The position numbers and the translations under genes are program-made. From NCBI GenBank assembly GCA_002311635.1, contig DBZJ01000238.1, positions 1 through 13,842 of the forward strand: a DNA stretch of 13,842 bases. The letters are read 5' to 3'. Below are positions 9,658-11,109 of the stretch, piece by piece. The notes beneath the pieces were generated by a model that was given only the letters and a program-made list of their open reading frames with translations, was not told the DNA's origin and searched no databases. Position 1 is the stretch's first letter. Each line of letters starts with the position of its first letter. The stretch comes from Syntrophaceae bacterium UBA1163. Its GTDB lineage: Bacteria > Desulfobacterota > BSN033 > UBA1163.

Positions 9658-11109
9658 GTGACAGATGAGAAAATCAAGATACAGAAGATGGATGATTATC
9701 GGTGGAGAATCCCTCGTGAAGGAAAGATGAGGACGGATGGCATCGTCTATGCTGATGAACGATTGTTCAACGATATTCGAAAGGACCAAAGTCTGGTTCA
9801 AGTGGCCAACGTGGCATGGCTTCCGGGCATTGTCGGCCATTCCTTGGCCATGCCGGATATCCATTGGGGCTATGGATTCCCCATTGGAGGAGTCGCAGGC
9901 TTCGACCTGAATGAAGGAATCGTCTCTCCTGGAGGAGTCGGTTACGATATCAACTGAGGTGTCCGATTGATGCGCTCGGGCTTGAGCCGCACGGACATCC
10001 AGGGAAGACTAAAGGAGTTGGTAGAAGCCCTCTTCGTTAACATCCCGTCGGGTGTAGGGTCCCACCGAAAAGACCTCAAACTGAACCGGGAGGAGGAGCG
10101 ACGCGTTTTGAAAAAGGGGGCCAGGTGGGCTGTGGAAAAAGGTTTTGGTTCATCAGAGGATCTTGACCACATTGAGGAACATGGATGCATTGAGGGAGGC
10201 AACCCGGACCGTATCTCTGAGAAGGCGATGGAGAGGGGCAAGGCCCAATTAGGGACGCTAGGCTCCGGGAATCATTTTGTGGAGGTGGGGTATGTGGCCG
10301 AGGTCTTTGATGAGGACATCGCCCGCGCGCTGGGGTTGTCGAAAGACCAGGCTACGGTGATCGTTCATACCGGTTCAAGAGGTTTGGGCCACCAGGTCTG
10401 CGACGATTACATCCGAGTGATGCTGGATGCGGCCAGGAAATATCAGATCGAGCTTCCAGACACCCAACTGTGTTGTGCCCCCGTCTCTTCTCCGGAAGGG
10501 CAGGGATACCTCGAGGCGATGGCCTGCGCAGCCAATTTTGCCTTCACCAACCGACAAATGATCACCCATTGGGTGAGAGAGACCTTTGAGCAAGTTTTTA
10601 AGAAGGGCCCTAAAGATTTAAAATTGGATTTGATCTACGATGTCTGCCACAATATTGCAAAGATCGAAACCCATACAGTGGACGGAAAGAAAAGGAAACT
10701 CTGTATCCACAGGAAAGGAGCGACCAGAGCTTTTCCTCCAAACCATCCGGATATCCCATCGGATTACCAATCCACTGGCCAGCCCGTCCTGATCCCAGGG
10801 GACATGGGTAGATGTTCCTATGTTTTGGTTGGAGCAGAAAGAGCCATGGAGGAGACCTTTGGGAGCACCTGCCATGGAGCAGGTAGGGTGATGAGCCGGC
10901 ATCAAGCTATTAGGGCCGCAAAGGGGAGGGCGATTGTGAGGGAATTGGAAGATAAGGGCATTATTGTCAAGGGGGCAAGTCGAGGAACCATTCTGGAAGA
11001 AATCCCCGATGCCTATAAAGATGTCAATGATGTTGTGAATGTGGTCCATCATGCAGGCATCAGCCGAAAGGTGGCCAAACTCGTCCCGATGGGAGTGATT
11101 AAAGGATAG
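9658..11109 (+). CDS. rtcB: RtcB RNA ligase, candidate selenoprotein (in-frame TGA as Sec)
   Basis: A long-form RtcB of 483 residues if TGA 9955-9957 is read through. RtcB joins 2',3'-cyclic phosphate (or 3'-phosphate) RNA to 5'-OH ends using GTP and Mn2+. The stretch before the TGA ends SPGGVGYDIN, and the next codons read GVRLMRSGL in the same frame. The family normally has Cys between N and G, a metal ligand (Cys98 in the Pyrococcus enzyme); here that position is residue 100. Downstream motifs are intact: GSGNHFVEV, IVHTGSRGLGHQV, YDVCHNIAKIE, and the GMP-accepting histidine in TCHGAGRVMSR. No other stop occurs. I chose GTG 9658 (SD AGAGGTG); GTG 9649 is the other option. Alternatives are a nonsense mutation or sequencing error at a cysteine codon. 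Confidence 0.85.
9955..9999 (+). promoter_or_regulatory. candidate bacterial SECIS stem-loop at the rtcB UGA
   Basis: The lower stem is GGUGUCCG (9958-9965) with CGGACAUC (9992-9999), 8 pairs including one G-U. A 5-nt bulge (9966-9970) follows. The upper stem is UGCGCUC (9971-9977) with GAGCCGCA (9984-9991, one bulged C). The apical loop GGGCUU (9978-9983) starts 21 nt after the UGA. Bacterial SECIS elements sit directly behind the UGA with a G-rich apical loop at this distance. Confidence 0.6.

Follow-up and report, generated by a model that had tools for sequence, protein, structure and literature searches.

The stretch of DNA analysed here, referred to as the window (13,842 nucleotides of contig DBZJ01000238.1 from Syntrophaceae bacterium UBA1163), carries a gene for the RNA ligase RtcB whose otherwise intact frame has a single interruption, an in-frame TGA, followed at once by a predicted hairpin (Table 1). 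The frame is open from the GTG at 9649 up to the TGA and continues for 383 codons in the same frame to a TAG at 11107-11109, as the sequence-only reading had described with its estimate of about 380 codons, and the protein context around the interruption is GGVGYDIN-TGA-GVRLMRSGL. When the TGA is read through, the product matches the Pfam RtcB profile over its full length (positions 1-426 of 426, with a cut-off of 27 bits). The GTG at 9658 is the likelier start given the AGAGGTG motif upstream of it, which would make the UGA residue 100 of 483; counted from the GTG at 9649 it is residue 103. There is a single RtcB match in the whole 4.08-Mb assembly (248 contigs), although a second copy could have escaped an assembly that is 90.6% complete.

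The gene directly upstream encodes archease, a partner of RtcB in Pyrococcus horikoshii that is often encoded in one operon with it (PMC3973293, excerpt). Where there is room to see the upstream gene, archease is found in this position at 98 of 110 Sec loci versus 10 of 29 Cys loci, an association that is confounded by kinship and in which some genomes appear under two loci. The downstream DUF1786 gene is a conserved neighbour, with a tblastn match in 18 loci, most or all of them close relatives and some genomes represented twice. Elsewhere in the window, the two rubrerythrin-type ORFs are oxidative-stress genes of an anaerobe, and the methylated-DNA-protein-cysteine methyltransferase, whose family has selenoprotein members (table in PMC13188914), retains Cys in its active-site motif PCHR.

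Table 1. Features of the window; "excerpt" here and in the text marks a source drawn on in part.
Feature	Position	Strand	Basis or remark
Rubrerythrin-like ORF with rubredoxin-like tail	5338-5898	-	Judged by eye
Second rubrerythrin-family protein	8095-8547	+	PF02915
Archease, likely RtcB activator	9135-9587	+	PF01951, 153.7 bits; directly upstream of rtcB
Shine-Dalgarno-like AGAGGTG for GTG 9658	9645-9651	+	Putative, from sequence
rtcB, whole frame with UGA read through, stop TAG	9649-11109	+	PF01139, 599.7 bits
Asp codon, P. horikoshii D95, metal ligand	9946-9948	+	Alignment; ligand role from PMC10630183 (excerpt)
In-frame UGA, putative Sec codon	9955-9957	+	Codon of the metal-bridging Cys; aligns to P. 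horikoshii Cys98
Predicted SECIS	9958-9999	+	Fold z -2.64 (9955-9999); synonymous shuffles z -3.01; register common to relatives
His codon, H203, metal ligand	10273-10275	+	Alignment; PMC10630183 (excerpt)
His codon, H234, metal ligand	10366-10368	+	Alignment; PMC10630183 (excerpt)
His codon, H329, metal ligand	10648-10650	+	Alignment; PMC10630183 (excerpt)
His codon, H404, active-site pocket	10873-10875	+	Alignment; PMC10630183 (excerpt)
DUF1786 protein	11245-12282	+	PF08735, 252.6 bits; downstream of rtcB
Methylated-DNA-protein-cysteine methyltransferase	12438-12944	+	PF01035

The cysteine column and the recurrence of the UGA

In an alignment with the P. horikoshii RtcB structure 1uc2, from which positions were counted, the UGA residue falls on Cys98. 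The residues D95, H203, H234, H329 and H404 are all retained, and only C98 is coded by UGA; the histidine aligned with H404 is presumably the one that is guanylylated. It had been claimed that the conserved Cys of the family sits exactly at the UGA, and the homologs agree: of 7999 that were scored, the best 120 include 88 full-length proteins, and every one of these has Cys at this column. The role of this Cys has been reviewed: one Mn ion is ligated by Cys98, His234 and His329 and the other by Asp95, Cys98 and His203; Ala mutants of this Cys are ligase-dead in the P. aerophilum, E. coli and human proteins, and in aerobically purified P. horikoshii RtcB it was found oxidised (PMC10630183, excerpt).

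The remaining 32 of those best 120 homologs are 379-residue entries that all start with MRSGLSRT just past the UGA. In such entries (P0030 is an example) everything before the first ATG that follows the UGA is missing, which constitutes a systematic mis-annotation. Because Sec forms enter databases as these stumps, RtcB is under-called in the lineages concerned. The choice made by the gene callers does, however, coincide with the strongest of the rival explanations, in which translation terminates at the UGA and restarts at the ATG at 9970, yielding a two-piece RtcB without the Cys. A Shine-Dalgarno-like GAGGTG (9956-9961) lies 8 nt ahead of that ATG. The start is nevertheless not conserved, with codon +5 being ATG in 26 of 123 distinct UGA stretches and any of ATG, GTG or TTG in 47 of 123. 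Moreover, neither piece would hold the Cys whose replacement by Ala abolishes ligation (PMC10630183, excerpt), and a restart accounts neither for the hairpin described below nor for the Cys found at this column in relatives. Given the unconserved start and the absence of the essential Cys from both pieces, we reject this explanation and give it very little credence.

The UGA is a recurrent feature of related genomes. Within the family, 12 of 13 RtcB genes carry one in-frame TGA (17 genomes, that of the window included), as do 16 of 17 RtcB genes of the class (23 genomes) and at least 20 of the 173 RtcB-bearing genomes among 198 genomes of the phylum. For a second phylum sample, the centre was the L026 genome (recorded as Acidobacteria), picked for its UGA; here, 5 of 97 RtcB-bearing genomes among 149 have a UGA-RtcB, the centre being one of the five. 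A scan of the species genomes (genome_contigs) with the DNA pattern for G-Y/F-D-I-N-UGA-G-V-R returned at least 117 loci, and all 117 listed matches lie inside an RtcB frame that stays open for at least 11 codons ahead of the UGA and at least 45 beyond it, some of them reaching a contig end. Early stops occur in L052 and L081, at 324 and 287 codons past the UGA, respectively. The 80 matches listed with taxa are labelled as Deltaproteobacteria/Desulfobacterota, Nitrospirae, Acidobacteria, one Planctomycetota and one Candidatus Binatia, along with vaguer names. The same pattern had no match in viral_contigs, and a search for plasmid relatives gave only two Streptomyces matches, which were weak, 98 bases long and of no use. 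From the 238 RtcB loci collected, 28 that lack the motif as written were left out; no stop is listed in these 28. At one locus, L107, the UGA-RtcB (GFDIN-U-GVR) is divergent, sits on a long branch and has none of the tested hairpin registers; it possibly represents a separate origin or uses a different SECIS.

This distribution bears on two trivial readings of the interruption. An error at the UGA base is conceivable for an assembly in 248 contigs, but the same codon is present in independent assemblies, which makes a miscalled base very unlikely indeed. The UGA might otherwise be a true stop, leaving rtcB a pseudogene or the victim of a recent nonsense mutation, and it is after all a standard stop codon that ends 6 of the 13 genes checked in the window. 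Against this, the identical codon is found in many species, the metal-site residues are retained and dN/dS is far below 1 downstream of the UGA as well as upstream. Values from 7 pairs fall between 0.024 and 0.076 and are alike 5' and 3' of the UGA, with two upstream values not estimable. Strong purifying selection is thus acting on both sides of the UGA. We consider a true stop highly improbable, in keeping with the earlier expectation that a random nonsense mutation would not land on this codon and leave the rest of the gene unscarred.

RNA structure just behind the UGA

The hairpin predicted behind the UGA of the window has a lower helix formed by 9958-9965 and 9992-9999 and an upper helix in which 9971-9978 pairs with 9983-9986 and 9988-9991. 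Its loop, GGCU (9979-9982), lies 21 nt past the UGA. The 9955-9999 segment folds with an energy of -19.3 kcal/mol (z -2.64), which was matched by 2 of 200 shuffles. Alternative cuts are weaker, with z values of -1.85 (9955-10010), 0.68 (9950-9994) and 0.11 (9958-9995), and the last two clip the lower helix.

To part RNA constraint from protein constraint, codons were shuffled synonymously according to each gene's own usage; identical stretches were collapsed beforehand, as they were for the SECIS-rule, register and dN/dS counts. Just past the column, the mean shuffle z was -1.45 for 125 UGA genes versus -0.40 for 64 Cys genes (Mann-Whitney p 6e-9, kinship ignored), and 38% of the UGA genes versus 12% of the Cys genes were individually significant (p <=0.05). 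Mean shuffle z in other segments of the UGA genes ranged from -0.66 to +0.02, and the Cys-gene mean became -0.21 once six hairpin-keeping Cys genes were removed. The rtcB gene of the window itself scored -3.01. An RNA structure signal is therefore located just behind the UGA.

Bacterial SECIS elements are hairpins positioned just 3' of the UGA with a G in the apical loop. When a stem of at least 5 is demanded, this rule holds for 104 of 123 UGA stretches versus 28 of 64 Cys stretches, and it holds for the window with its GGCU loop. Two exact registers that place the loop 20-21 nt past the UGA fit 78 of 122 UGA and 7 of 63 Cys stretches, counts that are descriptive because the registers were chosen after viewing the sequences; 44 of the 122 UGA stretches have neither standard register. 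Among the 19 stretches in the second register, the arms covary: at pair 21-31, 10 stretches have A-U and 9 have U-A, and at pair 20-32, 9 have C-G and 8 have G-C. GGUCU is the loop sequence of 34 of the 78 register-exact UGA stretches, and the rtcB hairpin loop is similar to that of E. coli fdhF, in which GGUC lies 18 nt after the UGA. Sorting the stretches by register succeeded where RNAalifold did not: one consensus for each of two coarse groups of ungapped stretches yielded no useful structure, owing to a one-base shift of the 3' arm between subgroups. At gathering score, Rfam identified tRNA-Sec only and no SECIS family.

L028, L043, L113 and other Nitrospirota-type loci appear to have a longer hairpin, with the loop about 27 nt past the UGA. 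The corresponding register fits 34 of 122 UGA stretches but, under a lax rule, also 20 of 63 Cys stretches, so we claim little for it, and use of the longer hairpin by those sequences is unproven.

Selenocysteine machinery and probable Sec/Cys exchange

The host has the genes for selenocysteine insertion that the sequence-only reading had named as a check. SelA and tRNA-Sec are encoded on the same contig of its assembly, SelB and SelD are also found, and all four score above cut-off, so that SelA, SelB, SelD and tRNA-Sec are present together in one genome. The selD gene, too, contains an in-frame TGA, and SelD is among the selenoprotein families already known (PMC13188914 Table 1). This gene (L179, G000:C76:20226-21149) also has a hairpin, UCCAG-AGGAU-CUGGA, after its TGA, with a spacing similar to that of rtcB.

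A SelA match was obtained in 36 of 39 UGA-RtcB genomes, the exceptions being those of L091, L139 and L053. Some of these matches are fragments, and the profile used, PF03841, may also match SelA-like paralogs. SelA is likewise present in all of the UGA genomes found in the two phylum samples (20/20, from at least 20 UGA genomes, and 5/5), but with base rates of 184 of 198 and 107 of 149 genomes this co-occurrence supports the assignment weakly. It was dropped as a statistical proof, SelA being barely above its base rate.

The machinery does bear on the question of whether the UGA is read by some means other than selenocysteine insertion, either because the code is reassigned or through a near-cognate tRNA for Trp, Cys or another amino acid. 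Read-through of this kind would be compatible with the sequence of the frame. However, TGA would then be expected to go unused as a stop if it were a sense codon throughout, and it ends 6 of 13 genes in the window; Trp is encoded by TGG, with five TGG codons in rtcB alone. The presence of Sec machinery in the genome and the exchange of TGA and Cys codons at a Cys column, which is the pattern expected for Sec, also speak against it, and we regard such decoding as having only a slight chance of being correct.

Exchange at this column appears to have been frequent. A FastTree phylogeny of RtcB proteins from 176 of 210 loci (112 Sec and 64 Cys), calculated without the UGA/Cys column and the hairpin-coded residues, needs 17 changes between the Sec and Cys states, at least 12 of them forced by well-supported branches. 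The root was not inferred, so gains are not told apart from losses. The nearest row to the window is L012, a Cys form from the same genus that is 91% identical and has retained the loop hairpin. Five further Cys forms also have this hairpin (L170, L194, L201, L211 and L222, six with L012). Both the switches on the tree and the retention of a hairpin by Cys relatives are what repeated Sec/Cys exchange predicts.

A candidate selenoenzyme of RNA repair

The combined observations suggest that rtcB is intact and that the UGA at 9955-9957, in place of the codon for the metal-bridging Cys, is decoded as Sec by the host SelA, SelB, SelD and tRNA-Sec under the direction of the predicted SECIS. Judging from sequence, we assign this reading a probability of about 0.93. 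The candidate selenocysteine RtcB put forward at the outset has thus gained both the Sec machinery of its host and many relatives with UGA at the same column. We further think it probable that this is a natural and widespread selenoenzyme of RNA repair, in which a selenolate bridges the two Mn ions of an RNA ligase, RNA rejoining is placed under the direct control of selenium supply wherever this is the sole RtcB, and the ligand has switched between Se and S many times between lineages.

According to this model, SelB loaded with Sec-tRNA would bind the hairpin as the ribosome arrives at the UGA, and the product would be a full-length RtcB of approximately 483 residues with Sec where Pyrococcus RtcB has Cys98. 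The selenolate of this Sec would bridge the two Mn(II) ions, which the counterparts of Asp95, His203, His234 and His329 would also hold, and the Se-bridged site would serve GTP-dependent guanylylation and RNA joining with the assistance of the adjacent archease. As the sequence-only reading proposed, Sec as a metal ligand might alter metal affinity, redox sensitivity and the regulation of RNA repair. When selenium is lacking, the ribosome would be expected to halt at the UGA and produce a short inactive peptide, making RNA ligation selenium-dependent. What the cell might gain from Sec is a matter of speculation, but by analogy the likeliest reason is an easier recovery of an oxidation-sensitive ligand after oxidation. 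In humans, RTCB loses its activity when the active-site Cys is oxidised; PYROXD1 guards the enzyme, and the guanylylated form is partly protected (PMC12263435, excerpt). In FdhA and [NiFeSe] hydrogenase, Sec has been credited with helping the enzyme to recover from over-oxidation or with preventing it (PMC13188914). The Sec/Cys pair L010/L012, at approximately 91% identity, would offer a clean test of selenium's role in a non-redox metalloenzyme.

No natural Sec-RtcB was reported in the open-licence literature searched, as judged by titles and abstract starts and with incomplete coverage. RtcB is absent from an inventory, published in 2026, that tabulates 119 selenoprotein families of prokaryotes (PMC13188914 Table 1), and the words "ligase" and "splicing" are absent from the main text of that paper, as is "ligase" from the deep-Sep paper (PMC12013277) and from PMC5029168. 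A search of NCBIfam release 20 with this protein gave no model for a selenoprotein RtcB. The statement that no selenoprotein RtcB has been characterised therefore stands for natural enzymes in the literature searched but needs amending for an engineered one, P. horikoshii RtcB with Sec at position 98 (PMC4150793, excerpt), which is the nearest precedent.

In that engineered protein Sec likewise occupies the Cys98 position of an RtcB, but it was introduced there at a UAG by an artificial system and the protein was self-cleaving, with a nearby peptide bond being cut (PMC4150793, excerpt), whereas the codon described here is a natural UGA in many bacteria. The self-cleavage counts against the Sec reading of the UGA. 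In P. horikoshii an intein also splices at Cys98 (PMC4150793, excerpt); the window's RtcB reaches 767.5 bits with the intein-containing model (NF038162), short of its cut-off of 1150, and there is no insert in its frame. Homology to the Cys-type enzymes, P. horikoshii PH1602 (PDB 1uc2/4it0) and Thermus thermophilus TTHA1785 (PDB 2epg), extends over the whole length (596 and 609 bits), and D95, H203, H234, H329 and H404 are shared, with a UGA replacing the Cys98 codon and a SECIS-like hairpin behind it. Human RTCB has the same active-site Cys (Cys122) as its oxidation-sensitive point, but animals shield that residue with PYROXD1 (PMC12263435, excerpt), whereas here the residue itself would become Sec. 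Parallels in chemistry are FdhA and [NiFeSe] hydrogenase, in which Sec ligates the catalytic metal in place of Cys (PMC13188914) and, as in fdhF, a UGA is followed by a downstream hairpin. Those are redox enzymes built on Mo/W or Ni, whereas Sec would sit here in a two-Mn RNA ligase that carries out no redox reaction.
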